A stretch of 64,000 nt of DNA, from assembly GCA_029204225.1 (NCBI GenBank), contig CM055108.1:24993803-25057802 (forward strand), in the 5' to 3' direction. Below the pieces are notes generated by a model. That model worked only from the letters and a program-made list of their open reading frames with translations. It made no database searches and was not told the DNA's origin. Positions 10,301 through 59,385 of the stretch are shown in pieces (position 1 is the first letter of the stretch; the number at the start of each line of letters is the position of its first letter). This DNA is from Diphasiastrum complanatum. Taxonomy: Eukaryota; Streptophyta; Lycopodiopsida; Lycopodiales; Lycopodiaceae. Position numbers and translations under genes: made by a program.

Positions 10301-12057
10301 CTAATTGTATAGACCAAAATGCCACATAAAGGCATTTTGAATGTATAGGAGGTTAAAGCTCAATAATCTATAAAAGCAATAATTGCAAACTAAAACCGAA
10401 TATACAATGCATGAGAGATGGCTGTCCCAGTCAGGGTCCATCAGCCCGGTATAGTACATCATGGTGTCCATCAGCCTGGAAGAAATAATGTAGGGTATGC
10501 TGTGAAGGTAGCACTGGATGTGCTGTAGACCTCTGTCTCCTGGTGGACTGTCAATGTCGTCTCTGCTGCTGTGGCACTCTGGACTGTGGCTTGCTGGCTC
10601 TCTTTGGGCGTCAACACTGTTGCTACCGATGTATGGAAGCATTCGGAATCTCAGCCTCTCCATCTGATTCAGTACCCTGGGATACCTTGGATCTCTGTCT
10701 TCGACGGGATATGCACTCATTGATGCTCAGCTGAATCAAGAAATGTCTATCAATTTCTAGTCTCCTCCTCCTCAAGTCCGACATCTCTCAGATCATCAGT
10801 GCGACACTAGGGTCCTCATAGGATATCAAGGTGGAAAGTGTGCCTGGGTGCTCCCTGAACAAACAATAGTACTTCCCCCGAATCTCATAATACGTTGGAC
10901 ATCTGAAGAGGAAATGTGACTCGTCCTGTAACTCATGCATATCACACATGCTACAAAGCCGAGCCTCTCGTGGGGTGCCGCTATATCTGCCGGTCTCAAT
11001 GGCCAGCTGGTGTGAGGAAACCCGAAACTGACCCATCACTATCTGCAGTTTGTGTGATATACTCCTTAGCTATTAATTAGGTACTATGGGGCATCCAGCT
11101 GGATCAAGGGATAAAAAGTGCATGCGATAGAAATCACTCTAGGTCCCCAGTGGACCCTACCAGGTGCTTTGAAGATACAATTTGTACAAGTGACCCCTGA
11201 TATACTGGTGGGTGCCCGCAGGTAGATCAATAATATGAATACCCAAGGTGGAGAGAAGACGACAGACCTGAGAATACCATGAGAAGTGGTGTCCTGAGTG
11301 CAAACTCCTGGAGGAAGACAGAGCAGCAACAACATAGTGTGTACCCTCGACTTGAAGATCATCCAACCGCTGTATAAATATGACAATATGAAATAGGGCC
11401 TCAATCTGAATGGGGGGGACCGCATACTCCACCAATATAATCTGATGCAGCATGGAGGGCTTAGATTGTATTATCCGAGAGAGCATATGAATCTGGAGGC
11501 GGGAGATGTGTGTCCAATCAGTAGTTGTCAGACCCGTACTCCATGTCTCGGCTGCCTACATAGCTGAGGGCACAACCATAGTGTCAAAGAGTCGGCACTT
11601 ACTGGTTGCATCTCTAATGTGAGCTGAAGCATAATCTCTCTAGATCTACAAGTGAGGCATAGCCTTTCTGTACCCAAGAAATAACTACATGTCTCATGCT
11701 GAAGGTGGGACTCGAGAATACGACCCCCAGGTACGTGTAGAAGTCAACAACCTCAAGTGGGTGACCATCCCATAGAAGCTCCTGTCGCATCATGAAGGAC
11801 TTGAAGGTGTTAAACACCATAACCTTAATCTTGGCCACATTCACTGACAGACCCCACCATGTACAAAAGGAGAAAAGAGCATCCAAATGCTGCTGCAAAC
11901 CCTCACTCGTCCATGAAAGCAGAACCACATCATCAGCATACAAGAGGATAGCAATAATGAGGTCGCCCAGTGTACAACCCTCCCCTCCATCACTCCGTAT
12001 AACATGCTCCAACTCATCAATGTAGAGACCAAAAAGTGTACATGAGAGTGGGCAGCC
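10301..12057 (-). pseudogene. LINE-1 (leftmost copy): RT C-terminal half, zinc finger and 3' end
   Basis: On the minus strand the frame enters reverse transcriptase at GCPLSCTLFGLYIDELEHV and keeps the catalytic ILLYADDVVLL. The thumb follows (KIKVMVFNT, TYLGVVFSS), then the C-terminal zf-RVT domain at 11,039-10,788 with CSMC...HFLFRC and YYEIRGKY. Frameshifts and stops break it into at least four frames. The 3' end has a stem AAAATGCC/GGCATTTT (about 10,317-10,342), the counterpart of the hairpin at the end of the other LINEs here. No (CT)n tail remains. It is more diverged than the other copies. Confidence 0.8.
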
Positions 12058-12449
12058 TGTATCCGCCCATCCATAGGGTCACAACCGACCCACTCCCATG
12101 CACTAGAGCTATCGTGCCTGATCAAGCCTCCTGCGATAATTGGCGTCCCATACCACCAGCCATCGCCCTTGGCTCTCCCTAGCACACATCGCCTGGCCTG
12201 GAGATACATCCTAGCTAATGCACGTGCTCTCCATCCACCAACTCCCGGGTAGACTGAGTGAATGGCAAAAGGGAAACCCCACCACTATATAGGCATAGCA
12301 TAGTGGGTCCCATCAAGCACGGTGCTGTTGGCGACACGTGACCACCTAGGATGGTGACGCGTGGCACCAAAACATGTTGATAACACCAAACCTGTGTCAT
12401 GCCCCTTGAGAGGCCGTCACTGAAGGGCGTACTGTTATGGTACATAACA
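12058..12449 (-). repeat. 3' LTR of a Gypsy element inserted in LINE-1
   Basis: Read on the minus strand it starts TGTTATGTACC and ends GGGCGGATACA, a TG...CA LTR of about 392 bp with a TATA box (CTATATAGTGG). It lies directly after a polypurine tract (ATGGGGGAGGGAA, 12,450-12,462). The LINE reading frame resumes right after its end (GGCTGCCCACTC = GCPL), so the element inserted into the LINE RT gene. Confidence 0.75.
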
Positions 12450-12900
12450 TTCCCTCCCCCATAAAACTTCCTTCTATGGGAGAAAACTAGGGAATCTAAG
12501 TCGTAAATCGTCTTTGTTCTCCCAGGTGTCCGAATCAGATGTTCAAAAATCAAACGATTTCTCAGCTGATGATGTCGGGTATCCATGATCCTCTCCGATT
12601 CATGGGGTATAAAGGCAGTCAAATCCTCCAATAACACTAGATCATCTGTTGGAATCAGGTTATCCTTTCCACCAAGTCGTTCCTTTAAACGACTAACATG
12701 GAATACAGGGTGAACCTTGGTTCCAACAGGGAGTTCTAGTCGATACGCAGTCCTACCAATCTTGTTAACAACCTTGAAAGGACCGCTATAACGTGGAGAT
12801 AACTTCGGACATTTCGCCGTTCGAAGTGTCTTAGAGTCCTTTGGGATTCTAAGATACACCCAATCATTTCAGTATGAGTGAAAACGGGCGATTGACGCTA
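12450..12900 (-). pseudogene. Gypsy pol C terminus (integrase tail)
   Basis: The minus-strand frame gives NDWVYLRIPKDSKTL, KLSPRYSGPFKVVNKIGRTA and HPVFHVSRLKERLG, the integrase C-terminal region of Ty3/Gypsy. The polypurine tract and LTR follow. All upstream domains and the 5' LTR are missing. Confidence 0.8.
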
Positions 12901-13610
12901 GCGTGGGAGTCCTTGCAGGCGTAAAGGAGTGTAGTGCAGGCCTAAACCACGCTGCTGGTAGATGCTCCACGCCCAAACCCTAAAAAACATGGAATTAGGG
13001 CATGGAAATTGAAATTTGTGATACGGACGTAGACGGGCGGAACGGAGGTCAGAGGAGTCTCTGCAAGCATGTGGAAATGCATTCTAGGCTCAAACATCAC
13101 CTGAATTGGTTCATTTTGTGAAAACGGCAAAAAAAAACAAGCATTTGGAATGTGGTGTTCAAATCTCGCCTGGCGTGCCGTAACGGCTGAAACTGATGCT
13201 GTAGGAATCACCGTGGGCATGAAGTAAGGTGGTCTAGAGGCAAACTACGCTCGATTTGGTTGCCTACAGCTCAATGTCAACACTTGCAAAAAATCAAGCC
13301 TACACTTACCAAAAATCGAAAACTGATCGTTTCGCTCTCCACGAAGCTCAGATCCCCTTGGCACCGTGCACACTACCTCCGTATCGCCGAGTAGATGCCT
13401 GCCGATTATGCACACGCCTTGATTGGACACCTGTAGCTCAAAATAAAAAAATTTACCTCCTCCACAGCTGGCGCGATTCTGGCCGTGAAGAGGAGCAATT
13501 TTTTTTTTTATAAACTGTTTTTTTTTAATCACGTTTTTGGGAGGAGAAACGCGTTTCTCAGAAACGCAGTTTCCAAAACGTGTCCTCCAGAAACGCGTTT
13601 TTGGGCATCT
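12901..13610. other. Unassigned insert in LINE-1 endonuclease, rich in GAAACGCGTTTC-like palindromes
   Basis: No coding motif. At 13,538-13,606 the motifs AAACGCGTTTCT, CTCAGAAACGC and AGAAACGCGTTTTTGGGCA recur. Read on the minus strand, the LINE frame ARYIW breaks at the GCCCAAAAACGCG sequence, which suggests the edge of an inserted element. Related motifs occur at 50,943 and 51,760. Confidence 0.4.
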
Positions 13611-14422
13611 ATGATCCAAATATAGCGAGCCTGCTCGTCAGTGTATAGTAGCTCAACCCAAGGCTGGAGGGAGTCTCAGAATAAGTAGGCAACACCACCC
13701 GAACCGCGACTAGTCAGTGCCCTCGTCGTCCCTCGAGATGTAGAAAACAATCAAAAGCCCTCAATGAAAGGAAGTCCATGTGTCTCTGTAAGCATAAGGA
13801 TATCAGCTGTAGTGCAAAGAGCTCTAAAATCTCTTACTGTAGCTGAGGAGCGGATACCACTGCAGTTCCATAAGCTCAACCGCAATGCTTTTGCGAGGGC
13901 CCTCGAACTGCTCCTAAGTCCGGGGGCCCCTACTCCCTATTTCTCAGCTTTCTTAGGATCAATGTACCAAGCCTACCATCTTGGTAGACCACCCTTCTGC
14001 CCAATGCTTTGGCTTTGCTAAGAACCTTTCTCCTTTCCGCAACTTGCACTGGTGTGAGATCATCATCCATAAAGATAAGGGTACCTCTCGGCTTAGCCCG
14101 TAGCTTAAGGGCTATTGACGCTCTTCCAAACTCGTGAACCGTACAATAAGTGTAGGGGAAAAAGAGAGGGGAGCTTGATAGGGGGCAGGAGAGCCGAGGA
14201 GAGAGGAAACGGGAGCCGTCAGAGCCGAAGAAGAAGAAGATAGAGGAAAGGGAGCTAGGGGGGCAGGTGGCTGCCTGCTGGACAGGCAGCACTTCGGCCT
14301 GCTTGTCAGCCAGTGCGGCTGCATGCTGGGGCAGAGCGCCTGCCTCAGCGGGCAGCCGCTGCCACAGCGGGTAGCCAAGGGGAGCCGGGGGTGGTGAGCA
14401 TCGGCGGCTTTGCAGCAGCGCA

Positions 14423-14424
<2 letters not shown>
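13611..14424 (-). pseudogene. LINE-1: ORF1 and start of ORF2 endonuclease
   Basis: On the minus strand, right after a (CT)n tract, a 5' region leads into ORF1. Its C-terminal part reads LKLRAKPRGTLIFMDDDLTP then QVAERRKVLSKAKALGRRVV, ending at about 13,929. ORF2 follows with an endonuclease start (LSLWNCSGI, ILMLTETHG, GSGGVAY, ARYIW) that is cut off at 13,610. The ORF1 N-terminal part is frameshifted. With 10,301-12,057 this is probably one LINE copy split by later insertions. Confidence 0.7.
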
Positions 14425-14484
<60 letters not shown>

Positions 14485-14505
14485 AAGAAAGAAGAAAGAA
14501 AGAAA
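14425..14505. repeat. (GA)n/(GAAA)n tract: 3' tail of LINE-2 joined to 5' end of LINE-1
   Basis: About 56 bp of GA plus GAAA repeats. On the minus strand LINE-2 ends ...hairpin-GGAAAAGACATTAATAAAGC then (TTTC)n(CT)n, and LINE-1 begins directly after the CT. Confidence 0.95.
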
Positions 14506-17500
14506 GCTTTATTAATGTCTTTTCCATGCCAAAAGGCATATAAGACTAGTAAATGTACCTGTCAAGTATGTGGTAACCATAGGAGCGTATGAAATGTCTC
14601 CAAAACAGTAACAAAAGTAGCAAATCTAGAGCTAAAGCTATAAACTGAAATAGATGTGATGCTACAAGAAACATGTGGGAGCATGTATATTGCTAAAAGT
14701 CATGCGTGAGGCATGACGCCATCATCTAGTCCTGTCCTGCTGATGCTGATGCTATAGAAGGATGTAATACGGCCTGCGGCATGAAGGGCCACTGGTGGTC
14801 TCTGACGTCGTCTGGGAGGATGAAGAGGTCTCCTCGTGATAGGTCGAGTAGCTCGTGCTGCAACATGGGTATGTGTGGGACGCTGTCTTTGGTCTCTGTG
14901 GGCAAGTAGGTCATCATCATCATCATTGTCACTGTCATCAAATCGTCCTCTCCTCCCGGAGAAGAAAGAAGTGATCTGAGGTTGAGAAACCTGACTCTGC
15001 TGGGCTGTCTGATACAAATCTTGTCATAGTATACACATCTCTCGTATCATGAGTGCCGCGCATCGGGAATCCTCATAAGCTATGAGCGATCGTAAGGTGA
15101 CAGGTGTGTCTCGGAACAAACAGTGGTATCTCCCTCTGATCTCATGATATACCGGGCACCTAAAGAGAAAGTGCTCCTCTGACTCCACCTCCTCTAAAGA
15201 GCATAACTGGCAAATCCGCTCCTCTCTCGGGGTATCCTGGAATCTACCAGTCTCAATAGCCAACTGATGTGATGATACGCGGAGCTGTCCCAATGTAAAT
15301 CTGAGGCAATGTGATAGTCTCGAGTCCAAATAATGTGGTAAGACCAGGAACCCTGCTATGTCAAGCTCAATAAAATGAGTCCAGTAGTAGCCAGGTTTAA
15401 TCCCAAGCTGTCGCCCCCAAGTACGGTCGGGAGGAAATGGGATGCCTGAGAGAACCACGATAGTCGATAACCCTGGTCCTGAAGAAAGTGTGAGGAAACA
15501 AGTGCTGTCTGTGTATATCTCATATCCTCATCGGGCAGAGCCTGGATTCTCTGAATGTATGCGATAAGCTGGAACGCGGCATATATTTGAATGGGTGGAA
15601 TGGCAAACTCTGCAAGAAGGATCTCATGTGGAACTGAGGGCTTCGCTCGAATCATACAAGCTAACGTGGTGGTCTGCAATCGTGAAATGCTGGCCCAATG
15701 TGCTGAAGGGAGGCCGGTACACCATGTCTCTGCTGCATATAAGGTTGTGGGGGTGACAATAGTATCAAAGAGTCTACACTTACTGCGAGCATCTCGGATG
15801 AGCTTCCTGAAGCAAAACCGCTCAAGCTGAACAAGAGAGGAATGCCCCTTCCCAAGTCGGGTGGTGGCAGCTTGCCGCATGCTGAAGGTAGGACCAGAAA
15901 AGAGTATCCCCAAATAGGTATAAGAGGAAACTACCTCTAAGGCCTGTCCATCTAGGATGAGCTCCTGGCGCTGCATGAAGGCTCAAGAAGTGTTGAAGAC
16001 CATAACCTTGGTCTTCACAGTATTCACCCCCAACCCCCATCTGGTACAAAATCCCTGTAAACAATCCAGCTGCCTATGCAAACCCTCTCTGGTCGGGGAT
16101 ACTAGTACTACATCATCCGCATAAAGGAGAATAGCGATCAGAATGGTGCCAAGTCTACAACCACCCCCGCCATACTGTGAGATGACTCGCTCTAACTCAT
16201 CAATATACAATCCAAAGAGAACCGGTGAAAGAGAGCACCCCTGTTTCACCCCAATGGTGCTCCAAATGTGATCAGATAGGCTACTGCTATGTCGGAAACA
16301 TCCCAAGACCTTCTCATAAAGAGCCATCACTGCTAGAACAATATCTGTGGAGAAACCAAGGTCACGAAGTCTCTGAATGAGCAGGGAGTGTGGTACAGAA
16401 TCGAAGGCTTTCCTGAAATCCACAAAACAGCAGTAAACCCTCTCTTTCCTGTACTTAGCTTCCTCAATCAAGGCTCGAAGTGTAAAAATATGGTCAGCGG
16501 TAGAATAATGAGATCGGAAACCTGCCTGCCCCAATGCATGTAATCCCCGAGCGTCCGCCTTTGAACTCACTGCAGACTGGAGTATGGTACCATAGAGCTT
16601 CGTGAGAACATGTCCGATCATGATGGTGCGGTAATTACCAGGAATCATGGAATCACCATTTTTATGAATAGGGTGGATGATGTTGGTGCACCAGGATGAG
16701 GGGAAACCAGAGACAACGGCGGGATTGAGGAGACTGGCTAGTGTGGGAGCAAGGAGGTCGGAAGCATGGGTTAGGAGTTCAGATTCAAGGTCTTCGATAT
16801 CTCTTGTTTTATGGGACTTCATTCTCTTGATGGCCGTAAGTACCATGTCAGATGTGAAGAAGGTGAACTCAGAGGGGCGTGGGGAGATAGAGATGGGTGC
16901 GTCAGTGGCTATGTTATATAGGTTGGTAGCGTATTCGGTCCATATGCGGAGGTCATCCAGGAGGGGTGGTGGAGCACGAGGGATAAACTCACGCCAAAAG
17001 GCGCCTGAAGAGGAAATGAAGAGAAGATCAACAAGACTCGTTCCTTCGGAGTCATCATAGATACACTTTTTTCGGCGGAGTGTGCGATGGTAAGAGCGCC
17101 TGGCGGAGTGGAGGAGATGAGGATCGTGAGTACGGGCATGGTGACAAGTTGATGAAGAGAGCGACATTCAGCATCATACCACAGGGGGTGTGGGGGTCGT
17201 ATCGATGAGGAACGGGTGCCTCTGCTTTTATGGGGTTTAGATGGAAAAGCAAGGGAAGCAGCGGTATGAAGAGAAGTGCTAAGAAAGGCAGCTTGAGTCT
17301 CGACTGTACTATCGTGAGGGAAGAAATGGAGCAAGGAGGTTAGGAACTCCTGGTAGATTGGTGTATAGAGAGAACTGAATGTATACCTGGTGGGTGCCCG
17401 TGTAAACAGGGGGTGTGAGGCTGGCTGGGGAGGTGGGAGGCGGCCGATAGCGAAGGAGAGAAAGGAATGATCAGAGAGAGTGGTGGGAGATACATGAAAA

Positions 17501-17753
17501 TCAGAGATGAGAGGTATGGAAGATGGTGATCCCATGAGATAATCCACAACACTATGTCCACCACTGTGAGGGTGACAAGTATAACTGCCGGATTTTGGCC
17601 AACAAGTTAGGCCATTGTAAATGGCTAACTCATGGGCCTCTCCAAACTGCAATAAATGCTCATCGTAAGGGGTAGTAGGTCCCAAGCTGTCCTCTGAAAT
17701 CCTGGTAACTCCCATGTCATCGCTGTCAAGGGCATGAACGCGGAGCTGGTCGG
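14506..17753 (-). pseudogene. LINE-2 ORF2: endonuclease C half, RT, zinc finger, PIP-like tail, 3' UTR
   Basis: The minus strand reads GGHSVVDYLMGSP and LSDHSFLSF (endonuclease end), a linker, then RT from 17,167: GNYRTIMIGHVLTK, GQAGFRSHYSTADH, VDFRKAFDSVPH, GVKQGCSLSP and YADD at 16,112-16,123. One shift near 15,980 leads to the thumb, and another near 15,400 to the zf-RVT (CQLC...HFLFRC). A single TGA at about 15,024 separates this from an in-frame tail. That tail has QPQITSFFSGRRGR, an acidic run, HAAGRITSFYSIS and a stop at about 14,700. The 3' UTR ends with hairpin ATGCC-TTTT-GGCAT (14,526-14,539). It is nearly complete, interrupted by Copia element 2, and inactive through shifts and stops. 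Confidence 0.85.
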
Positions 17754-18095
17754 TGATAATTTGCAAGACCCAGCTATGGAGTATCTTAACTCAAATACTA
17801 GATCAACTATGAAAGCTTGAGAAACTTGGCTATGGAAAACATCACACACAAGGAGAATTGCATAAGCACCTCACAAACTCAAAAGTCTGAAGAAGAAATG
17901 AATTGCTAGAGAGAGAGAGGAGGGCGTGGGTCCTCCAAATCCCTTGTGAGGCAAGCACCTCCTTTACGTGCATGGAAAGTCTAGGTGTCAACCATAGGAG
18001 TGAGCTACTTGCCAAGTGGGCCACTTGCACTATGAGTTATGTACAACTTAACTAATGCTTAGCCAAAGGGGTAAAATAGGCATTACTCTTCAACA
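17754..18095 (-). repeat. 3' LTR of Copia element 2
   Basis: 342 bp, TG...CA on the minus strand. It matches 22,182-22,576 with one substitution seen by eye and lacks a 53-bp block present in the other LTR. It is flanked by target duplication GTCGG (17,749-17,753), which is found again at 22,577-22,581. A G-run polypurine tract abuts it (18,096-18,102). Confidence 0.95.
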
Positions 18096-18111
18096 CCCCC
18101 CCTTAATGGCA

Positions 18112-20570
18112 ATTTTATTCATCACCTGCCCAATCAGAATCTGAATAACCCTCCAGCTGAAGGTCCCCGTCATCTGTGTATCCAATCCCATAAGTCACTG
18201 TCCCTCTCACATATCGTAGGATCCGCTTGGCTGCCTTCCAATGTGCTTCGGTAGGCTTACTCATGAATTGACTTGCAATTCCAACCGCATAAGCAATATC
18301 TGGCCTGGTGGTAGTAAGGTAAATCAGGCTGCCCACTAACTGACGATAGCATCTCATCTGCAAATGCTGAACCATCATCTTTTGATGGCTTGTTGCTTGC
18401 ATCCATGGGTGTGCTGATTGGTTTGCTTTCTTGCATGTTAAACCTCTTCAATAATTTCTGTGCATACTTTGCATGTGAGATAAAAAGACAACGCTTCCCT
18501 TTCCAGACTTCAACTCCTAGCAATAGTGTAGCAAACCCAAATCTTTCATCTCAAACTCACTAGAAAGATTCTTCTTAACACAAGCAATAAGCTTCTTATT
18601 GCTTCCCGTGATGAGTAGATCATCCACATAGAGCACAACAACCACAAAGTCTTCTCCTTCCCTGAAGACATAAAGATTGCAATCAGACTTACTCTTCTCA
18701 AACCCTTGCCTTGCAAAGTACTCTTCAATTCGGCTATACCAAGCCCTTGGCGCCTGTTTGAGCCCATACAAGGCTTTCCTAAGCCTGCAAACCAGATTCT
18801 GCTTGCCTGTTATTTCAAATCCCTGCGGTTGTTCCATGTAAACCTCCTCCTGTAGGTGCCCATTCAGAAAGGCACTCTTGACATCCATTTGATGGACATC
18901 CCAATCAAAATATGAGGCTATAGCCAAAACGGTCCTGATAGATGTCATCTTAGCAACAGGTGTGAATGTCTCATCATAGTCTAGCCCCTCCTGCTGAGCA
19001 TAGCCTTTCGCCACCAACCTTGCCTTGTACTTGTCCACTGTTCCATTGGCATGAAACTTGGTCTTATAGACCCACTTGCAACCTATTGGTCTGGCAATGT
19101 ATTGAGCTCCCATGTGTCATTCTTGATGGAGTCGTACTCCTCCTGCATGGCATGTTGCCATACCTTTTCCTTCACGGCTTCGTGAAAGAACTGTGGCTCA
19201 TCTGCATTCAGAATAGTGGACATAAGAGCAAAGTTAGTCTCTTGTCTCTCATGAGACCTAAGAGATCTTCTGACACCCTGTTCACTGCTCTCTCCTTCTT
19301 CCATCATTTGACCTTCTTTGATTGTTTCCCAATACCACCTAGGTAGCTTCTTCCTAGCAGTAGGTGATGTGGATGGTGACCACGTATCCCAAGTTACTGT
19401 CTTAGTCTTCCGTTTGTCCCCAACTTCGGCTTCTGGTACTTGGCCAAAAAGAGGTCTCGAACTAGTAGGTTCGATTTCCTGTTGTTGCTCCTGCACTTGA
19501 GGCTCACAGGACTCTTGACTAGGATCCTCATCCGTGGAATCAATCAAGGGTATGAACTCAGTAGTTCCTTCCTTCTCCTGCTCCTGTATCTTGGGTGAAT
19601 GCTCTTCATCAAAGATGACATCTTGACTTAGGATCTTCTTCCTGTTTTCGAGATCATATAGCACATAAGCTTTCTCATCTTCACTATACCCAAGAAAGAC
19701 ACACTTTACGGATTTTGTATCAAGTTTCTTCCGCAAGTCCTTTGGTATATGTGCATATGCTATACACCCAAATACTCGAAGGCTGCCCACTTTGGGCTTG
19801 TTGCCACTAAAAACTGCTTTGGTTGGACTTCTATTCAATAGAAAAACAGCAGTTGCTACCGCTTCCGCCCAAAAAGAATTTGGCAACCCCTTTGCCTTGA
19901 GCATGCTCCTCGCACACTCAACTATAGACCTGTTTTTCCGCTCAGCCACGCCGTTCTGCTGCGGTGTATGTGGAGCAGTAAACTGTCTCTTTATCCCACA
20001 TGCTTTACAAAGATCTTTGAACTCATCAGAAATATACTCACCACCCTTATCTGACCTGAGAGTCTTTAACCTCTTCCCTGTGTGGTTTTCCACCATAGCT
20101 TTCCATTGTTTGAAGTATTTGAACGCTTCAAATTTCAGTTTCAGAAAATAGACCCATACCTTCCGTGCGAAATCATCTACGAAGGTCATGAGATAGTATG
20201 CCCCCCCTGCTGATTTGACCTGCGTGGGACCGCATAAATCTGAATGCACAAGTTCAAGAATGCCCTTGGCCCTGGTAGCTTTCTCCTTTGGAAACTTTTT
20301 CCTCTGTTGCTTCCCTAATGCACAAGCCTCACATGTATCTGAAGAAGACTTAATGCTAGGAAGATCTACTACCATTTTGTGCCTGTTCAAAACTTGCAAA
20401 CTTTTATAACTCAAATGACCATATCTCTCGTGCCAAAGCTTGTCCCGATTAGTATCTCTTGCAGACAAGGCCTCTTGGCTAGGAATGGTTGTGAAAAGCT
20501 TGTAAAGACCTCCTTCTTGCATTCCCTTGGCTACCACCTTGAAGTTTGATCTTTGTCTTTTACCAAACAT
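18112..20570 (-). pseudogene. Copia element 2 pol: integrase, RT, truncated RNase H
   Basis: Integrase (20,570-19,083) has the zinc region RYGHLSYKSL...CEACALGKQ and the catalytic LVHSDLCGP, FVDDFAR and QQNGVAERKNRS. RT (19,113-18,115) has YKARLVAKGYAQQEG, MDVKSAFLNG, QPQGFE, LYGLKQAPRAWY and LYVDDLLI. Frame breaks at about 19,100, 18,530 and 18,370 look like single-base indels. RNase H stops right after [10 protein letters not shown] at 18,115 and the polypurine tract follows at once. The rest of RNase H, normally over 100 residues, is deleted. The enzyme set is therefore incomplete although the LTRs are almost identical. Confidence 0.9.
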
Positions 20571-21715
20571 GTAGAATCATCAAACTCTACCACCATGTTC
20601 TGTTTGGTAATGGCAGCTAGCAAGTTCTTAGCCAACCCTGGTACATGCAACACACTTTTAATTTCCTTCACCTCGCCTGATGACAGCTGTACTGCAACTG
20701 TGCCTTTGCCCCTCACCATACGTGTAGAATTATCTCCAAGGCAAACATGCTGACCATCTTCTGTCTCCTCATAGGTGTTGAACCAATCTCTATGAGGTGT
20801 CATGTGCTTTGAGGCTCTAGAATCAATGTACCATCCACCAAATGTGGATTCAGATGATAGGGCTGCGGTGAATAGCTCAAGCACACCAGATTGCTCCTCC
20901 TCTGCAACTTTGTCAACAAAGTGACCCTGCTGGTTCTTTCCCTTCTTCTGATCACTTTGCTTCTTCCTGCATTCAAAGGCAAAATGCCCATACTTACCAC
21001 AATAGTTGCAGTTGCCCTTCCTCTTGGGTGTAGATGAGGAATTGGTGCTTGACTCCTCTCCAACCTGTAACTTGGACACCTGCTGCTCCAAGCTTTGCTT
21101 TGAGTTCTTCTTTTTGCCTTTACCTTTCTTCTGAAAGTTTTGCTTCTTCTTAGAAGCAAAAGCAAGCTCTGGATTATCTTCCCTTTCAGAAAGATTCTTC
21201 CTTCTACCACATAACTCCCCAAAGGTTGGGAGTTTCTCCCTAGCAGAAAGGGACATCACATAGTCTTGATAGTTGAATGACAAGCTGTTCAAGACTATGG
21301 GGACAATACTCCTGTCACTTACTTTCTCTCCAACTGAAGCAAGCTGATCCATTAGGTCCTTGACCTTTGTAATATGATCACCAATTGTTGCACCTGCTTC
21401 CATCTTGAGAGTATGTAACCCGTTTTGCAAATACACCAACTTGGCTGTCCAAGCATCAGCTGCATCCCTTGCATTGCAAATGTGAGGAATAATATTGTCC
21501 TTGACAGAAAGATTGATTATCCTATGAGCTTTCTGTCTCCTGTTCATGTAGTCCTTCAATTCAGGATCAGATGTTGGTATAGGTTCTGTACCTGTCATCA
21601 CCTCCCAGCAATTCTTGTCCATCAAGATATTAGCCATCTTGAACTTCCACACTCTGTAGTTTGTGCCATCTAGTTTGCTAGATTCACCCAGCAAACTCTC
21701 CCCAAGACTAGCCAT
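20531..21715 (-). pseudogene. Copia element 2 gag and protease
   Basis: The frame begins MASLGESLLG at 21,715, 466 bp after the 5' LTR. Gag has YRVWKFKMANIL at the N terminus, a Lys-rich stretch and the knuckle CNYCGKYGHFAFEC (CX2CX4HX4C). The protease active site reads WYIDSRASKHMT. The family has DSGAS, so the catalytic Asp-Ser-Gly triad is altered to Asp-Ser-Arg. A one-base loss near 20,540 shifts the frame before integrase. Confidence 0.85.
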
Positions 21716-22169
21716 GCTAAAATCTGTGGTCAAACAAAAGCTCAACCTGAAAAAGATCAGAAAAGAAACAACTTCCAACAAGGGTTTGACCACAAACTAG
21801 GGTATGTAGCCACTTCAAGGCAACCCTTTAGCTCTTGCTTTTGTCTTTGCCACTTGGTATGGCCTCACTAGCACAAGCACTAGGCCCCATTGGAACAGAA
21901 ACCAGAAGCCCCTACAGAAAGTGCGCCCTACTTTTGGGTAAGCTCCTCCAGAAAGACTCCCCAAAACTTAGCCAGATTTAGAAAGTTTTTGGTTCATCCC
22001 ACTCCCCTTGCCAATAGCTCTCCAACAGTGCAAGACTCCACCTGATCTGACACCTGTAGATCAAATGCTCCCTCTTTCAAGATTGAGGTGCTTGTAGAAG
22101 ATGAGAATCTTCTCAAGAATCTAAGCACTGAAGTTTCTCTCACTCACAGACCCACAGGCTAGACAACCT

Positions 22170-22181
22170 GCTCTGATACCA
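22170..22181 (-). other. Primer binding site of Copia element 2
   Basis: Minus-strand TGGTATCAGAGC directly follows the 5' LTR end (AAATTATCA). It is complementary to initiator tRNA-Met. Confidence 0.9.
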
Positions 22182-22576
22182 TGATAATTTGCAAGACCCA
22201 GCTATGGAGTATCTTAACTCAAATACTAGATCAACTATGAAAGCTTGAGAAACTTGGCTATGGAAAACATCACACACAAGGAGAATTGCATAAGCACCTC
22301 ACAAACTCAAAAGTCTGAAGAAGAAATGAATTGCTAGAGAGAGAGAGGAGGGCGTGGGTCCTCCAAATCCCTTGTGAGGCAAGCACCTCCTTTACGTGCA
22401 TGGAAAGTCTAGGTGTCAACCATAGGAGTGAGCTACTTGCCAAGTGGGCCACTTGCACTAATTTACTCAACTTACAAAAGGGGGTCTCATGCATTTAATT
22501 AAAACATGCCCCATGAGTTATGTACAACTTAACTAATGCTTAGCCAAAGGGCTAAAATAGGCATTACTCTTCAACA
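22182..22576 (-). repeat. 5' LTR of Copia element 2
   Basis: 395 bp, TG...CA on the minus strand. The full-length LTR keeps the 53-bp block (about 22,460-22,512) that the 3' LTR lost. Target duplication GTCGG lies at 22,577-22,581. Confidence 0.95.
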
Positions 22577-23180
22577 GTCGGTGATGTCATAAAACTCTGA
22601 CTGTCGTGAAGAGGTTCGGGCATTAAAATCCCCAATGAGGAGAATATGCCCCCGCTCTGCGAATCTGATAATATCAGGCGATAAATCAAGGTAGGGTGAA
22701 CCTGTGCCCTCAGCAAAGGACGAAGACTTTGGAGCAAAAATAACATGCCGCCACAAAGAGGTCCCTGTCGAAACCAATATCCTGCCCTGCAATACGAATC
22801 CATATATACCGTGCATGCTCGTCGTGTCTGATGAACTCGATGCTCGGATGAAGAGACTCTCTGTATAAGCATGCAATACGTCTGGATCCACGACCTCTAG
22901 CTGATCTAGTCTCAAGTCTGTATACGGAATCCCATACGTATCCTGGAAAAATAGGTAATCCTCTCTCTTGACTCTCATGAGTCTCCTAAAGAGCAGTAAA
23001 TCTCTATCAGTGATGAAATCGATCAAGTCGCCAGCAATGGAAGATGAGTGTAAACCATCACAGTTCCATACTCCAATCCGGAGATGGTGTGGATGGGGCC
23101 CCGGGGCACTCCCGAACCCGGGGACCCCAAATCCCTAGCACTGGGAGCTGCTAGGTGCGCTGTCAAGAAAACACACTCGT
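22577..23180 (-). pseudogene. LINE-2 ORF2 endonuclease N half
   Basis: Read on the minus strand: LRIGVWNCDGLHSSSIAGD, a frame disruption around the ETH motif, then RGHILLIGDFNARTSSRQSE and FYDITD, where Copia element 2 has inserted. After the insertion the frame resumes as DQLRVHALDSDDMG at 17,766. The DFNAR block is the APE-type endonuclease signature. Confidence 0.85.
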
Positions 23181-23185
23181 CCATC

Positions 23186-24402
23186 TCAGTAAATGACTCG
23201 TCTGCCAGACTCACGGGCTGCCTGAAAGGCCTTACGCCTCTCCTCTACCTGGATATATGTGAGGTCATCGTCCATATAGATAGTGGTACCACGTAGCTTA
23301 GCTCTGCACCGCAAAGCATCTCGACGGCTCTCAAGGGAGGTGAAACGAATAATGAGTGTGGCTGCATCTCTAGTGGTCCTCCATGCGGTGTCCAACCCCT
23401 CTGTCCTGTGCCCGAGAGTGATGTCGGGAAAGTGTTTGGCTTCAGCCAATGCATCCTGTGTATCTAGAACTCCACGAACTCTAATATTGTGGGCTTTTTG
23501 GTCTCGAGATTTCTATTCCGAGATGGTGGCTGAGATAACCGAGGAGATGGGAGCGTTGGGTTTGGTGCCCTTTCTCAAAACTGATGCCCAAGAAAGGGCC
23601 TCTTTGTGTTGCTTCTCAATCTTGGTTTCTAGCTCCCGTAGCATGTTGGTGGTGGATTCCGAAGCTGCAGCCTGTTTGATCCCGATGGATTGTTCGAGTG
23701 AGGCAACCTTGGACTGCAATAACTTCTTCTCGTTGATCAAAGAAGTAACCGTTTCTTTCAGCTGTGAAATTTCATGCCGCAAAAACTGGAAATCTGCCTT
23801 GAATTGATCAATCTGACAAGATGAAAAAAGTTCAGTTGATTTAGAAGGCGTATACGGAATATTGGCTGTAAACTGTGGTGCCGGTAAGGAGGAAGAGTGA
23901 GCAATGGTCGGTGTGGGAAGAATAGGGTCAGAAGACGGAAGAAGAGCCGAATCAGGGGAGCAGCCATTAGAGAGGGGGGTGGGAGTTGTAGCAGGAGAGG
24001 GAGATGGGTCATCGAGGGGGTGAGGTGAAGTGGCAGCGAGGGGGGGGGGGCTGGAATGACTATGAGAGGAGGTGAGGGATCAGCGAGGGGGGGTGAGGGA
24101 TCAGCGAGGGGGTGAGGTGAGGGGGCAGCGAGAGGGGGGGTTGGAGTGGCAGCGAGAGGGGGTGAGGAGGGTGGATGGGTGGAGGGGTCAGCGAGGAGGG
24201 TGGGTGAGGGGGTGGCAGCTATAGGAGAGGGATCAGTGAGGGGGAGATCGGGGAGGTCAACGAGGGGGGGGTATGGAGCAACGAGGGGGGAAGGAGGAGG
24301 AGCAGCGAGGGGGGGAGGTGAATGGTGAGCGAGGAGGGTGAGTGAGGAGGTGACAGGGGACCTTGACTTATTTTGCCTACATTGGGGGCAATGTTCTTTA
24401 TA
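23186..24402 (-). pseudogene. LINE-2 ORF1: Pro-rich N terminus, coiled coil, RRM-like and C-terminal domain
   Basis: From high to low coordinates: a Pro/Ser repeat region (24,360-23,900, made of PLADPSPP-like units), a coiled coil (23,782-23,560, LKETVTSLINEKKLLQSKVA), and then IRVRG...LIIRFTSLESRRDAL and RGTTIYMDDDLTYIQVEERR to the stop near 23,186. This coiled coil-RRM-CTD plan resembles animal L1 ORF1 proteins. Most plant LINE ORF1 proteins that I know of instead carry a zinc knuckle. Several stops and shifts are present. Its first codons probably lie in the inverted segment (24,921-25,050). Confidence 0.7.
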
Positions 24403-24866
24403 GCCAGGGACTACAGGATACAGGCCTACTGGGCTACTCTGCATATATTCCGCAGGCCTCTTTACATTTGCTGTTGGTTATGTATATTTCTGGTTACGCA
24501 TTTTATATTAGTCATGTACAAGCCCCAGAGCCTTTTTATATGCTTATGACCCGCATTGGGTCCTTTTTTATGACATTGACTGGCCTTGGGCCCTTATTAT
24601 ATGGTTATATGTGGAGTGGGGGCCCGTAGGAGGGCGCACTATTTTCCCTCCACATTTTGCCTCCCTTTACTATTGAATTCCTATTTTAGGGTTCATTGGT
24701 ATGGTATTTATAGGGGCATTTGTACACTCATTTTTCAGATTATTGATTGGTATTGCTTGGGCTTTTCGTGGGAGAACCTATTGTCTTGTCTATTGCTTGT
24801 AGGGCTTTAGTCTATTGCTGTCTTTTATGCTTCATTGATTCAACACCTGAGATTTTGATCATAACT
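24403..24866 (+). repeat. 3' LTR of Gypsy element 1, inverted relative to its internal region
   Basis: It matches the reverse complement of 30,339-30,786 with about eight substitutions and one 17-bp insertion. The Gypsy internal domains lie on the minus strand, yet this LTR lies on the plus strand. It ends CATAACT, followed by AAAGA (24,867-24,871), the same target duplication as at the 5' LTR. See the inversion feature. Confidence 0.9.
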
Positions 24867-24879
24867 AAAGACGTCAATA

Positions 24880-24923
<44 letters not shown>

Positions 24924-25050
24924 GGCTGCTCCTCCAGCTCCTCCAGCGATGGCTGCTGCCCTGTCCTAGGCCCTGCCCTTGCCCTGCCCTGGTCGGCCCT
25001 CTCTCAACACCATGGCCCCTCCTCCTCCTCGCGCCCCTGCTCGTAGGTCC
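24408..25050 (+). other. Inverted segment of about 643 bp bounded by GGACTAC/GTAGGTCC
   Basis: On the plus strand this segment holds, in order, the Gypsy 3' LTR, the last bases of a LINE 3' UTR (AAAGACGTCAATAAAGC), a (CT)n tract and a LINE 5' end (MAAPPAPPAMAAA, then MAPPPPRAPARRS). All neighbours of these parts are on the minus strand. Flipping it restores Gypsy-3' LTR-target duplication-LINE tail-(CT)n-LINE-2 ORF1. The ends carry a near-perfect short inverted repeat, GGACTAC at 24,408 and GTAGGTCC at 25,043. Confidence 0.8.
24867..24920 (+). repeat. LINE-3 terminal sequence and (CT)n tail
   Basis: AAAGACGTCAATAAAGC plus (CT)n (24,883-24,920) is the end of the LINE copy whose 3' UTR resumes at 30,787 beyond the Gypsy insertion. 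Its orientation is flipped with the segment. Confidence 0.8.
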
Positions 25051-26350
25051 TAAGAACCAGTGCCAGAGAAAAATACTGCATCAAGATATCCCATCTGAGA
25101 AAGGAACATCAAGAGAAGCCGGAGCATCCCGAGAAGCAATGGTAGCTGCAAGTGATTGAGCCTGATCAGCCAGGATAGGGGTATGATAAAAAACATCAAT
25201 GGGCTCCCAAGTAGCCTCCTCAATAGGACGACCATCCCACTGGACCAAAAACTGAACCTACCGATGGCGACGACTATGCAATAAGCGCACCTGTAAAATA
25301 GCAGCTGGCATGAATGGAAAAAGCTCTGGATCTGTAGGAAATGAGGAATCTTGAGGAGCATCATCCTCAATAGCAGCACGTAATAAACTGACATGAAAGA
25401 TATCACAAGCCCGAGTAGCAGCAGGTAACTCAAGACGATATGTAACTGAACTAAGGCACTCAAGAATCTGAAAAGGCCCATAATAGCGCGGCGCAAGCTT
25501 CTCAGTAGAAGCAAGACCCTGTACAAAACGATGGCGAGCAAAGCGTAACCAGAGAAAAACAGTATCTCCCTCTGCAAACTCAACATGGCGCCGATGACGA
25601 TCAACAATGGTCCTGTACCGCTGCTGAATATGCTGTAAATGAGTAGCAGCTCTAGTAATAATCTCCCGAGCACTCGAAAGATAAGATGAAATAGTAACAG
25701 GTGCATCATCTGGAGGAGCAGGTATACCGGGTAGAACTGGTGAGTATCCATGAGCAAGCAGGAAAGGAGAAACACCTGTGCTGGAACTAACAGAACTGTT
25801 ATAACTATACTCAGCCAAACATAAATGCTGATCCCAATCACGACCAGAAGGAGAAACATAATGTCGTAAATAATCCTCCAATACCCGATTAATAACCTGA
25901 TGTAAACTTGGTATCCCGATTAGTAAGTATAGATCGTGGGAGACCATGTAAGCGGAAAATCTCAGAAATAAATATACGACCACACTGCTCTGCTGTAATA
26001 GTACGTCTGACTGGTATGAAATGAGCTTGTTTAGAAAACCTATCAACTACCACCAAACAAGAGTCATGACCATGCTGAGTACGAGGAAGACCTAAAATGA
26101 AGTCCATAGATATATCAGTCCACTGGCGGGAAGGAATAGGCCAACTTTGAAGGAGACCGCCGGGTTTTTCACGGGAATACTTGTTACGAAGGCAAAAATC
26201 ACAAGTATGAATAAGGTGGGAAAGCTCACGCTTCATGGAAGGCCAGTAAAAATGTTCTTTCAAACGGAACAAGGTGAAAACCAAAATGGCCACCAACAGG
26301 AGAGGAATGGGCATCAAGGAGGAGCTGTGGACGTATGTCGAGAGTGCTGG
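25051..26350 (-). pseudogene. Gypsy element 1 integrase and chromodomain-like tail
   Basis: The minus strand gives HTCDFCLRNKYSREKPGG (zinc region), DISMDFILGLPRTQHGHD and VVVDRFSKQAHFIP, and ILTNRDTKFTSGY at about 25,905. There a deletion of roughly 120 nt removes the FW...SSAYHPQxDGQSE block with the catalytic Glu and shifts the frame to VINRVLEDYLRHY. The C-terminal part runs to 25,258 and, after one stop, ends VQFLVQWDGRPIEEATWEPI, a chromodomain-like motif typical of chromoviruses. A frameshift near 26,270 separates it from RNase H. The integrase is not functional. Confidence 0.85.
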
Positions 26351-28043
26351 GAATACATAACGAACCATAGTGAAACAAACGATGATTAACAATGGAATAA
26401 ACCCGGTGAGGGTGAGAGGAAGGATGAGAGGCAGACGACATAACATCACGAAAGTCTGGACATGTAGCATAAGCCTGAGGAAGATCATCATACCAAGAGT
26501 GGGGAGACGTAACAAGACTGTAAGTAAGAGAAGGTAAACGAGACAAAGCATCAGCAGCAGCGTTACTTTTACCAGGCTTATAATGAATATCAAAATGAAA
26601 GGACTGTAAAAACTGAAGCCAACGGTACTGACGATCACTAAGATCCTTTTGTGTATACAAATAACGAAGTGACTGGTGATCAGTAAAAACATCAAACGGA
26701 ACACGATACAGATAATGACGCCACTTCTTTAAAGCAAAAATGATAGCAAGCAACTCTTTTTCATGAGTGGAATAGCGCTGCTCATACGAACGAAGACGAC
26801 GGGATTCATATGCAATAACACACTGACACTGACATAACAAAGCACCTAATCCTGTGGAACTAGCATCAGTCTCAACAGCAAAACGCTGGGAAAAATCTGG
26901 AAGACATAAAACAGGGGTAGTGGTAAGCTTAACCTTCAAAGTATGAAAAGTTGACTGACATGCGGGAGTCCAAGCAAACGAAGTTTCCTTTTTCAACAGA
27001 GCATGCAAAGGAGATGCAAGAGTGGCAAAATGAGCAACTGGTTTACGAAGATGGATAGCAAGACCAAGAAACATACGAACATCATGAACATCAGCAGGCA
27101 CAGGCCATGAAAGAATAGAACGGACCTTACGAGGGTCGAGACGAACAGTACCATTAGTAACAAAGAAGCCCAAAAACTCGATTTGTACAACAACAAAAGA
27201 ACATTTAGAACGTTTAGCATACAGATGATGAGTAACTAACAAAACCAAAACAGAACGAACGTGCTGAACATGAAGAGAGAGAGTGGTGCTATAAATGAGG
27301 ATATCGTCAAAATAAACAACGACACACTTTCCAAGCAGAGGACGAAAGATGTTATTCATGACATTCTGAAAAGTGGGTGGGCCATTGGTAACACCAAAAG
27401 GAAGGACACGAAACTCATACAGACCAAAGTGGGTACGGAAAGCTATCTTGTGCTCATCAGGAGGATGCAGACGAATCTGGTGATAACCGGAACGGAGGTC
27501 AAGTTTAGAAAAGATCTCGGCTTGGCCTAACTGGTCAAACAGGTCATCCATATGAGGGATAGGGTACTGATTACGGATAGTAAGTTTATTTAAAGCACGA
27601 TAATCTATACATAGACGTTTAGTACCATCCTTCTTATCAACAAGTAAAATAGGAGCACCAAAAGGACTGTGGCTAGGAACAATAAGGCCTTGACGTAATA
27701 AATCAGACACCTGACGCTGGACTTCCTCGCGCTCAACAATAGACATACGAAAAGGAGGACGAGAAGGAGGTGATGCAGAGGAAACAAGGTCTATATGGTG
27801 GTTGACATCTCGTAAAGGTGGTAACTGAGTCGGCTCTCTAAAAACATGCTCAATTGAATTCACGCAGCAGTTCAGAAAATACCTGTGGCAAAGGTGGTGC
27901 ATCTGCAGTAGGCTGAACTGGCTGAACAGAAAGAATAGCCGCACAGTGGGCCTTCGGGAGGCTCCGTATGAACTGCTTCCCGGAAATAAGCTAATAGTCC
28001 TGTCGAGAATCAATACCGGAAAATATATGCTGAGTACCATCAT
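26351..28043 (-). pseudogene. Gypsy element 1 reverse transcriptase and RNase H
   Basis: A single long frame reads REEVQRQVSDLLRQGLIVPS, KKDGTKRLCIDYRALNKLT, FSKLDLRSGYHQIR, FGVTNGPPTFQNVMN and VVYFDDILIYS (YFDD intact, about 27,303-27,314). RNase H follows: VETDASSTGLGALL, YSTHEKELLAII, FTDHQSLRYL and KSNAAADALSRLP. The RT-RH stretch looks undamaged. Shifts lie upstream toward protease and downstream toward integrase. Confidence 0.9.
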
Positions 28044-38636: not shown

Positions 38637-38640
<4 letters not shown>

Positions 38641-42145: not shown

Positions 42146-42167
42146 AGGAGGCGGTAAGCAGATGGAG

Positions 42168-42171
<4 letters not shown>

Positions 42172-42217
<46 letters not shown>
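42172..42217. repeat. (GA)n tract: junction LINE-7 tail / LINE-6 start
   Basis: About 46 bp of GA. Here LINE-7 ends ...GGAAAAGAC directly in (CT)n, without the usual ATTAATAAAGC. Confidence 0.95.
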
Positions 42218-42219
<2 letters not shown>

Positions 42220-42735
42220 CTTTTCCATGCATATAAGACTAGTAAAAATACATGTCAAGTATGTGGTAACAATGGGAGCGTATGAAACGTCTTCGAAACA
42301 GTAAGAAAGAAACATCTAATATGAACTGAAATAAGTGCAGTAAGATATGTAGGAGCATAGATGCAACTGGATGTCTACAATAAATGATAACACTATCATC
42401 ATGTCTTGTTGATGCTGATGCTATAAAAAGATGTGATGCGAGTTGCAGCATGGGGGAGCTCTAATAGCTGCTTATGTCGTCTAGGAATGTCAGAAGTGTG
42501 TCTCCTCATAAGAGCTCTAACAACTTGGGCAACAACATGGCTATGAATGGTGCACTGTCTTTGATCTCTGTAAACATGTATGCCGTCCTCATCATCATGC
42601 TTTGGGTCGCGTCGTGACCTTCTCCTAGAGAAGAAAGAAGGAATCAAAGGCTGAGAAATAATATGCAGAGATCTTTGACATAGATCCCACCGCAATAAGC
42701 ATCAGCGACACAAAGCATCATATAGAGTGACAAAG
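42218..42735 (-). pseudogene. LINE-7: 5'-truncated copy (ORF2 tail and 3' UTR)
   Basis: The minus strand reads LRWDLCQRSLHIISQPLIPS then FFSRRRSRRDPKHDDEDG, and further down ELPHAATRITSFYSIS. This is the same two-motif ORF2 tail as in LINE-2 and LINE-6. The hairpin is collapsed to CATGCATAT (deletion) at about 42,225. Confidence 0.8.
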
Positions 42736-42739
42736 GTTC

Positions 42740-57846: not shown

Positions 57847-57941
<95 letters not shown>

Positions 57942-57963
57942 AGAAGAAGAAGAAGAAGAAGAA
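57847..57963. repeat. (GA)n plus (GAA)n tract: tail of LINE-9
   Basis: About 90 bp GA followed by about 26 bp GAA next to the LINE-9 3' end. It is a variant tail, (TTC)n(CT)n on the minus strand. Confidence 0.95.
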
Positions 57964-58958
57964 GCTGTATTAACGTCTTTTCATGCCCTAAGGCACATAA
58001 GACAAAAAAAAAAATAGTACATCCAAGTATGATGGAAATAAGACGGGACAGTACCGTCAGCCAGATAAGAAAACTAAGCTTTAGCTAACCACTATGCAAT
58101 AGTCTAGGAATATATGGTCTGAAAATGCAACCATTTACAAGGTCAACTGGATACTAAACTCAAACTCAAACTCAACTCTATTCTAACTCCAACTTTAAAA
58201 TCATCTATTTCGTTTCCGCTAAATGTTTAGCTTCAACAAAATGGATTTTACCGTCTCTGTAAATGAGATGTTTTCCTGTGTCTCTCGCTTTTTGCAAAGC
58301 CTCTTTTCTTTCCATCACTTGTACTTAAGTGAGGTCTTTGTCCAGGAAAATCTTGGTATCTTTTAGTTTGTGTCTTTGACGCAGTATCTCCTGTCGTGAT
58401 TCCAACGAGGTGAAGCGCAGGACAAGGGTATTAGCGTCTTTCTTGGTACGCCAGGCTGAGTCCAAACCTTTGTCGTGATGATGGAGAGTAGCTTTCAAAA
58501 CATTTTTGGCCTCAGTAAAAGCATCATGAGAATCCGGGATGCCTCTGACATGGACATTGAGAGCCTTTTGCTCGCGCAACCTCCTCTCAGTAAACATAGC
58601 AGAAATGAAAGAAACTGGAGCATTCGCCGATTTTCCTGGACCTTTGAGAATATCTGCCCAAGATTGGATAGATGTAAGATGCTGCTCCACTTTACTTTTG
58701 AGGTCCTCAATCGTAGTTGAAGTAGCTACTTGGGAGGGTACTGCACATTTGATGGCTGTAATTTCCTGCTTCAGTCTGCGGATCCTTCCCTTTCTTGTTC
58801 TTGGCCATATTTCCCTTAGCAAAAGGATCTGGGCAGTTGAAACGTGGACTTTCAGGGCATTGACAGCCAGGCAGCAGTGGTGGATCAGCAGTGAGGGATA
58901 AAGTGCGATGGAGCAGCACTGATGGAGCTAGAGGGCCGCTGGAGCAGGGCGCACCATC

Positions 58959-58960
<2 letters not shown>
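57964..58960 (-). pseudogene. LINE-9: ORF1-only element with LINE 3' end
   Basis: It starts right after (CT)n. ORF1 runs from MAKNKKGKDP at 58,808 to TAG 58,205: a short coiled region (IEDLKSKVEQHLTSIQSWAD), RRM-like (KALNVHVRGIPDSHDA, ANTLVLRFTSLESRQEIL) and the C-terminal domain (KDTKIFLDKDLT, stop, VQVMERKEALQKARDTG). One frameshift near the start and one in-frame TAA break it. No ORF2 sequence lies between ORF1 and the 3' UTR, whose hairpin is CATGCCCTAAGGCAC-type (57,983-57,996). It is a non-autonomous form like the ORF1-only derivatives of mammalian L1. Confidence 0.75.

Positions 58961-59015
<55 letters not shown>
58961..59015. repeat. (GA)n tract: tail of LINE-10 joined to LINE-9
   Basis: About 54 bp GA. 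On the minus strand LINE-10 ends ...GACATTAATAGAGC(TC)n and LINE-9 begins right after with GCGATGGTGCGCCC. Confidence 0.95.
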
Positions 59016-59017
<2 letters not shown>

Positions 59018-59335
59018 CTATTAATGTCTTTTCCATGCCAAAAGGCATATAAGACTAATGAAGTACATGTTAAGTATGTGGTAACCATGGGAGCGCATAA
59101 AACGTCTCCAAAACTGTAATAAAGAAAACATCTAGTACAAGCTAAAATAGACATGTAAGCGAGAGTGTGTGTGCATAATAATCATATGTATCCATGTCAA
59201 GATGTCAAGACTGTGCTGATGCTGTAGAAAGATGTAATGCAAGCCGCAACATGAGAAAGCGCTAGAGCCTGCTGGCATCGTCTATGAGCATGAGCATGTG
59301 TAGTAGTACGTCTCTGTGTAGGATGTCTGGTGATC

Positions 59336-59337
<2 letters not shown>
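59016..59337 (-). pseudogene. LINE-10: 5'-truncated copy (ORF2 tail and 3' UTR)
   Basis: The minus strand reads RITRHPTQRRTTTHAHAHRR then HVAACITSFYSIS, the end of the ORF2 tail, followed by the 3' UTR with hairpin at 59,035-59,048. It starts directly after another (CT)n tract. Confidence 0.8.

Positions 59338-59385
<48 letters not shown>
59338..59385. repeat. (GA)n tract next to exon 7
   Basis: 48 bp of GA ending 30 bp before exon 7. On the minus strand it is the (CT)n into which LINE-10 is set. Confidence 0.95.

Follow-up and report, generated by a model that had tools for sequence, protein, structure and literature searches.

CT microsatellites are target and tail of a LINE family with head-to-tail chains in Diphasiastrum complanatum

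Analysis of a stretch of 64,000 nucleotides (nt) from Diphasiastrum complanatum (GCA_029204225.1, contig CM055108.1, positions 24,993,803 to 25,057,802), here called the window, revealed chains of long interspersed nuclear elements (LINEs) joined by (CT)n tracts. These LINEs belong to a large family with a first open reading frame (ORF1) predicted to be of the LINE-1 type and an ORF2 for an endonuclease and a reverse transcriptase (RT), and the family very probably inserts into (CT)n/(GA)n microsatellites. CT is both the target and the tail of the element, and many LINEs have their start within the tail of an equally oriented neighbor. The presence of LINE-CT chains in the window was confirmed, and such chains extend beyond it. 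A preceding reading of the window without database searches (the sequence-only reading) had proposed that each CT tail becomes the target of the next copy; overall, this interpretation was supported.

LINE ends and LINE starts at the CT tracts of the window

In the window, (CT/GA) tracts with a minimum length of 16 bp occur at nine places and add up to 528 bp. Seven of them had been named in the sequence-only reading, whose list lacked those at 57,847 and 5,736. The LINE 3' end was represented by a profile consisting of a hairpin around GCCTTTTGGC within GTCTT...AAGAC, followed by ATTAATAAAGC, which gave nine matches in the window (E < 1e-4). On the minus strand, a LINE end consists of the hairpin, AATAAAGC, a run of pyrimidines, and (CT)n; a further LINE opens at the tract edge. 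Seven of the nine tracts lie directly 3' of a LINE end (14,425, 24,883, 38,227, 38,555, 42,172, 57,847, and 58,961), and the opposite edge of six tracts opens LINE sequence (14,425, 38,227 after C8, 38,555, 42,172, 58,961, and 59,338). The claim that minus-strand LINEs end in (CT)n and that the next copy starts in the same tract was thereby borne out, including the LINE start after the tract at 59,338. Among the individual links that had been listed, those at 14,425, 38,227, 38,555, 42,172, and 58,961 stood, whereas the one at 24,883 was found to be a LINE tail behind the long terminal repeat (LTR) of a Ty3 element. Full-length as well as truncated 5' ends had been said to follow the tracts, and both were found: ORF1-bearing 5' ends at 42,171, 58,960, and 14,424 and truncated 5' ends at 59,337, 38,554, and 38,218.

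No LINE was detected on either side of the plus-strand tract at 5,736 to 5,827, a (CT)46 that is preceded by an LTR-like stretch. A CT tail is absent from an old LINE 3' end at 34,274 to 34,365, and ATTAATAAAGC from the 3' end at 42,217. The pairwise identity of seven 3' ends in the window ranged from 63.5 to 95.7%. Judged by these identities, what had been read as one family is a set of several diverged subfamilies.

CT tails and CT-edge starts in the genome

Genome-wide counts were obtained from the window's own assembly (1.74 Gb, 23 to 24 large contigs). The 33-nt LINE 3' end occurred 6,113 times (2,996 + 3,117) with at most two mismatches, and the reversed control did not occur. Details of the 3' ends were taken from the first 30 of 100 listed places, all of which are exact matches on contig C1. 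The immediate tail was a CT run of at least 8 units in 24 of these 30 places, and (CT)8 or longer was present within 140 nt in 25, the run at L009 not being the immediate tail. Four places (L014, L015, L028, and L038) carried (TTTC)n and then 3 to 7 CT units, and 18 of the 30 tails opened with TTTC. Poly(A) after CT was found at none of the 25 sites that have a (CT)8 or longer run. In the 1.5 kb downstream, 13 of the 30 places had a LINE protein match on the same strand, 1 had one on the opposite strand, and 16 had none. The LINE match started at most 10 nt from the tract edge in six (L012, L017, L018, L019, L029, and L030). At L025, an ORF1-bearing 5' region lies directly at the tract, as is probably also the case at L009, L013, and L034.

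The 5' ends were studied with a 19-mer, GTGGAGATGGCTCCACGCG, which lies at the CT edge in L042 and L054. It was found at 35 places, and its reversed control at none, and about 210 nt upstream of all 35 were examined. A pyrimidine tract precedes the 19-mer in 35 of 35, and in 33 a (CT)5 or longer ends 1 to 9 nt before it; the remaining two places are alike and carry TTTTTTCTCTCTC. Upstream of the tract, a LINE 3' end was present in 18 of the 35 places, and none was detected within the 210 nt in 17. These places comprise 23 distinct contexts, 10 with and 13 without a LINE 3' end, where the clustering of contexts may have joined loci whose tails are standard and some LINE ends of old age may have escaped detection. 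The idea that most copies elsewhere are flanked by target duplications other than CT, which the sequence-only reading had named as evidence that would speak against it, was refuted in both samples by the pyrimidine tracts at all 35 starts and the CT tails at 24 of the 30 ends. Several of the 5'-end contexts among L055 to L089 occur twice, often with one of the two on a small contig and with differing CT lengths (L063/L086, L070/L084, and L081/L082); they may be alternate alleles or assembly duplicates.

A set of 16 loci was analyzed with about 6.5 kb of upstream sequence each. A CT tract of at least 8 units was present at the LINE 5' edge in 8 of the 16 (L040, L041, L042, L044, L048, L051, L053, and L054); in L044 and L053, the 5' edge was assigned by means of ORF1 or of 5' sequence located further on. 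L050 was ambiguous, and L045 runs off the end. A compound (CT)n(CA)n tract follows L040 and L053 and was counted in favor of insertion into CT.

A CT tract without a LINE at a related site

A site with bare (CT)n, as expected for the state before insertion, was found by comparison of L062 (contig C5) with L052 (contig C1). The L062 flank before the tract matched L052 over 149 nt with 91.3% identity, and the flank beyond the LINE matched over 91 nt with 94.5% identity. In L052, only (CT)38 separates the two flanks. The LINE at L062, which ends in AATAAAGC(TTTC)2TTT(CT)5, splits the tract of the surrounding repeat and has CT on both sides. When the joined L052 flanks with a shortened tract were used as a query, 40 of 40 scored matches, drawn from 2,124 first-look candidates, were contiguous (248 to 266 bp). 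The bare (CT)38 and the contiguous copies indicate that the tract belongs to a repeat with an LTR-like ending and that the LINE entered it without visible loss of the flanks.

Positions 1,980 to 2,400 of L052 (LINE orientation) contain a high-copy LTR-like repeat with a CT tract inside (2,124 candidates). A repeat of this kind would offer many further targets for the LINE.

Alternative origins of the CT-LINE association

Chance was rejected as the source of the association. Tracts of at least 8 units on the LINE strand of the 16 long loci, two of which overlap, were CT in 34 cases and GA in 4. Among the 100 listed places on C1, neighbors at a distance of at most 7 kb were on the same strand in 12 cases and on opposite strands in 1, with a random expectation of 0.95 in all; at a distance of at most 10 kb, the values were 12 and 4, with a random expectation of 1.37 in all. 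A weak test was provided by CT runs shortly before a motif of the 3' untranslated region (3'-UTR), which gave 17 raw matches representing 7 distinct loci, 3 of them unambiguous, and no match with GA; at 4 of the 7 loci, the run is possibly mutated sequence of the LINE itself. Segmental duplication, or unequal exchange between CT tracts, is a highly improbable origin of the chains, even though CT tracts can recombine, chain A (described below) has a Ty3 fragment on one side with its other part missing, and a few contexts are present twice in the assembly. The mean identity of the seven 3' ends in the window was 76.5% for the 5 pairs from the same chain and 76.8% for the 16 pairs from different chains, and the distance of the truncation points at CT edges from the 3' end varies between about 240 and 2,900 nt. 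Since neighbors in a chain are no more alike than other copies and are cut at differing points, tandem duplication offers no explanation, and the 23 differing upstream contexts of one 5' end are not derivable from one array. Duplication of a single array, an objection raised in the sequence-only reading itself, was thus refuted by the equal identities, the differing truncation points, and the 17 of 35 starts without a LINE 3' end before the tract.

Chains could also arise at once by end-to-end template jumping, in which the RT finishes one RNA and continues onto the CU tail of a second. The product would be identical, with head-to-tail copies and CT between them, and template jumping is known for other LINE enzymes. 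It is nevertheless unlikely as the general route, because it is not needed for the 17 of 35 starts that lie in a CT tract without a detected LINE 3' end before it and because the empty site shows insertion into CT. Template jumping may still make some chains. The CT before a LINE could, finally, be a leader of the element and not its target. The 19-mer 5' end would agree with a leader, as a tract accompanies it in 35 of 35 places and truncated copies show one less regularly. However, truncated copies that would have no leader also start at CT, both in the genome (L012, L017, L018, L019, L029, L030, L040, and L041) and in the window (59,337 and 38,554), and related sites carry CT without a LINE. 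We therefore consider a leader quite unlikely and rejected it as the whole story. Leader and target can both be partly true if the RNA starts inside the tract.

Several observations weigh against insertion into CT as a rule for all copies. L010, which together with L009 makes up the 2 of 30 exact 3' ends without an immediate CT tail, has a short (TTC)4 tail and no CT on either side. A CT tract at the 5' edge is absent in 6 of the 16 long loci (L039, L043, L046, L047, L049, and L052), and two of these, L043 and L049, bear ORF1; L049 abuts a Ty3 element. The copies that start elsewhere than at CT also include some truncated ones. CT at the 5' edge is thus not universal among the LINE copies. All 35 places with the 19-mer belong to a single subfamily, and some of their contexts are duplicates. 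The empty site is paralogous and not an allele of the kind that the sequence-only reading had asked for. Priming, the nick site, and the order of insertions belong to the inferred part of the model.

A model of insertion and chain growth

Insertion of the family into CT microsatellites would start with a nick of the GA strand by the endonuclease. The (CU)n at or near the 3' end of the RNA would then pair with (GA)n and prime reverse transcription, and repeat pairing within the tract may also assist the joining of the 5' end. Every insertion would leave a new target on its 3' side, and head-to-tail chains would grow. Since CT remains 3' of each inserted copy, LINE tails and genomic microsatellites serve equally well as targets; about half of the examined 19-mer 5' ends sit behind LINE 3' ends. 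Poly(A) is missing although the 3' end contains AATAAA, which suggests that priming takes place within CU or that the RNA lacks poly(A).

The distance from the tract to the ATG ranges from 3 to about 90 nt (7 nt for the subfamily with the 19-mer, 26 nt at 42,171, 4 nt at L025, and about 90 nt in the chain C LINE of the window), which leaves the element with next to no leader. A distance this short leaves little room for an internal promoter and suggests that the tract itself may act as one. As a tentative proposal, on which we would not yet rely, the CT tract might combine the roles of landing pad, priming site, and promoter. Transcription starting inside (CT)n would produce RNA with CU at both ends. 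Each LINE in a chain would then have its promoter in the tail of the preceding copy, which would make chains self-propagating transcription units. HeT-A uses its upstream neighbor as a promoter, and the chain tails would be the microsatellite counterpart of this arrangement. A promoter in the tract would explain why a pyrimidine tract adjoins the examined 5' end in 35 of 35 places, with less regularity among truncated copies. If true, it would mean that the LINE lays down its own start site. In plants, GAGA-type factors can bind to (GA)n/(CT)n, and a TCTCTCTCT motif near the 35S start of cauliflower mosaic virus (CaMV) is described as an enhancer (PMC1781443).

Classification and comparison with known LINEs

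Matches to PF03372 and PF00078 above the cutoff were obtained for window positions 39,170 to 41,236 and for ORF2 of L048, with the endonuclease before the RT. The endonuclease/exonuclease/phosphatase domain in front of the RT and the frequent 5' truncation correspond to LINEs with an apurinic/apyrimidinic endonuclease (APE). No RNase H family was listed for the scanned C-terminal pieces of ORF2, where one may still be present. ORF1 gave no Pfam match. Structure prediction from three window sequences (mean pLDDT, 64.9; pTM, 0.29) suggested a long coiled coil, an RNA recognition motif (RRM), and a C-terminal domain. The best match of the model in the PDB was human LINE-1 ORF1p (2yko_A; E = 4.1e-05), which places the predicted ORF1 in the LINE-1 type as found in L1/Tx1-like elements. 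A protein search revealed 25 relatives, including one from the fern Adiantum nelumboides (P0016; 37% identity over 39% of the query) and one from Branchiostoma belcheri (P0025). In the viral and prokaryotic contigs searched, neither the LINE 3' end nor ORF2 had a match.

The family resembles LINE-1 in the endonuclease and RT of ORF2 and in the predicted fold of ORF1. It differs from typical L1 in that poly(A) was absent after the CT at all 25 sites checked and that both tail and target are CT. Microsatellite-targeting families of animals include Waldo, Mino, Kibi, and Koshi of the R1 and Tx1 clades. The common feature is insertion into simple repeats; the present family differs in its plant host, in a tail made of the target repeat itself, and in the frequency of LINE-to-LINE chains. 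As in microsatellite-specific LINEs, a simple repeat harbors the copies and makes up the empty site, although not every copy follows this pattern. Microsatellites are named among the targets of LINEs, Togen being specific for (TG)n (PMC4640811), and site-specific LINEs among the APE clades are said to occur only in Tx1 and R1 (PMC13295347). A limited literature search found no microsatellite-targeting LINE of a land plant. The family would be a microsatellite-specific LINE of a land plant, and long CT microsatellites would arise from it.

Insertion into tandem repeats and head-to-tail order are also described for telomeric LINEs (PMC10088271). HeT-A/TART/TAHRE and Zepp1 of Chlorella share head-to-tail arrays or tandem-repeat insertion with the present family, whose copies are instead dispersed across chromosomes in CT microsatellites and joined by the CT tail. 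The head-to-tail order was found here (12 versus 1 neighbors), but confinement to chromosome ends was not: the window lies at 24.99 to 25.06 Mb of contig C17, and the 100 listed places are spread across 1.2 to 74.9 Mb of C1 (101.6 Mb). Insertion into its own tails would let LINE arrays grow away from telomeres. RTE/Bov-B elements likewise have a short-repeat 3' end, for which an influence on cleavage and priming is proposed (PMC13295347). The same paper states that Bov-B copies are rarely flanked by targets like their own 3' repeat, whereas here the target is that repeat, and that there is no general consensus on why many LINEs have microsatellite tails. With a tail equal to the target, thousands of copies, and empty sites that can be found, the annealing idea is directly testable in the present family.

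Layout of the three chains

Coordinates in this section follow the LINE strand, which is the minus strand unless stated otherwise. Chain A (59,385 to 57,847) opens, after non-LINE DNA, with a (CT)24 tract (59,338 to 59,385), at the edge of which a 5'-truncated LINE with about 320 nt of the 3' region begins (59,015 to 59,337). The following (CT)27 (58,961 to 59,014) is the tail of this LINE and the start site of the next, an ORF1-only derivative of about 1 kb (57,965 to 58,960) that has ORF1, no ORF2, and its own 3' hairpin end and pyrimidine tail. Its (TTC)n(CT)46 tail (57,847 to 57,964, with the tract at 57,847 to 57,938) leads into a Ty3 fragment. The arrangement at L044 is similar to that of the ORF1-only element.

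Chain B (42,658 to 37,865) opens with a LINE 3' fragment (42,218 to 42,658), which is separated by (CT)23 (42,172 to 42,217) from a LINE at 38,637 to 42,171. This LINE contains ORF1 (41,237 to 42,145) and ORF2 with endonuclease and RT (39,170 to 41,236), the latter having an internal deletion near 39,350. A (CT)41 tract (38,555 to 38,636) separates it from a 5'-truncated LINE that begins at the tract edge (38,247 to 38,554), followed by (CT)10 and C8 (38,219 to 38,246) and an ORF2 fragment (37,865 to 38,218). Beside this fragment, another LINE piece lies at 37,690 to 37,763 on the plus strand, so that two adjoining pieces have opposite orientations.

Chain C (about 31,015 to 10,301) consists of a LINE end with a Ty3 insertion, a LINE, (CT)28, and a further LINE. 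The first LINE 3' end (30,787 to 31,015) breaks off with GGAAAAGA at 30,787, where the Ty3 LTR starts. The next LINE is present in two parts, the first with ORF1 and endonuclease (22,577 to 24,402) and the second from the RT to the 3' end with its pyrimidine tail (14,481 to 17,753); it is interrupted by a copia element at 17,754 to 22,576, which carries two LTRs. The (CT)28 (14,425 to 14,480) separates this LINE from a degraded one with a Ty3 piece inside (10,301 to 14,424), whose degenerate 3' end near 10,301, spotted by eye, has no CT tail.

The tract at 24,883 has the orientation opposite to that of the other chain tracts and represents the final 17 nt of a LINE tail that lies behind the Ty3 LTR. 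On the other strand, the second LTR (24,408 to 24,866) ends at 24,866, and the LINE tail resumes with AAAGACGTCAATAAAGC(CT)19 (24,867 to 24,920, plus strand). The two LTRs share 94.6% identity over 459 columns. AAAGA is present at both sides of the Ty3 element, compatible with a 5-bp duplication from a single insertion into the LINE tail; AAAGA also belongs to the LINE 3' end, and the duplication alone is weak evidence. The flank past (CT)19 is a GC-rich stretch beginning with ATGGCCCCTCC and appears to be the inverted 5' end of the next chain C LINE (24,921 to 25,050, plus strand). A relative located at another place of the genome, L048, matches 25,022 to 25,049 of the window (plus strand) with 96% identity at positions 25 to 52 past its CT tract, and its sequence from position 60 onward matches the minus strand of the window from 24,360 downwards. 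On this comparison, the Ty3 element (24,408 to 30,786) probably entered the LINE tail, and the 3' LTR and its flank were then inverted. A LINE tail fused to an LTR at 24,883 was also considered and was dropped, since AAAGA at both Ty3 ends and the intact order in L048 make an inversion the simpler reading. Undoing the local inversion would restore LINE-(CT)19-LINE, and the matches to L048 indicate that chain C probably once had a third CT link.

Exon-like sequences at 36,087 to 37,061 and 59,440 to 61,200 (plus strand) resemble one WD-repeat gene, perhaps for a protein similar to a TFIIIC subunit; the segment at 36,087 to 37,061 had no Pfam match. With such exons around them, chains A and B may be antisense insertions within a single intron of great length.

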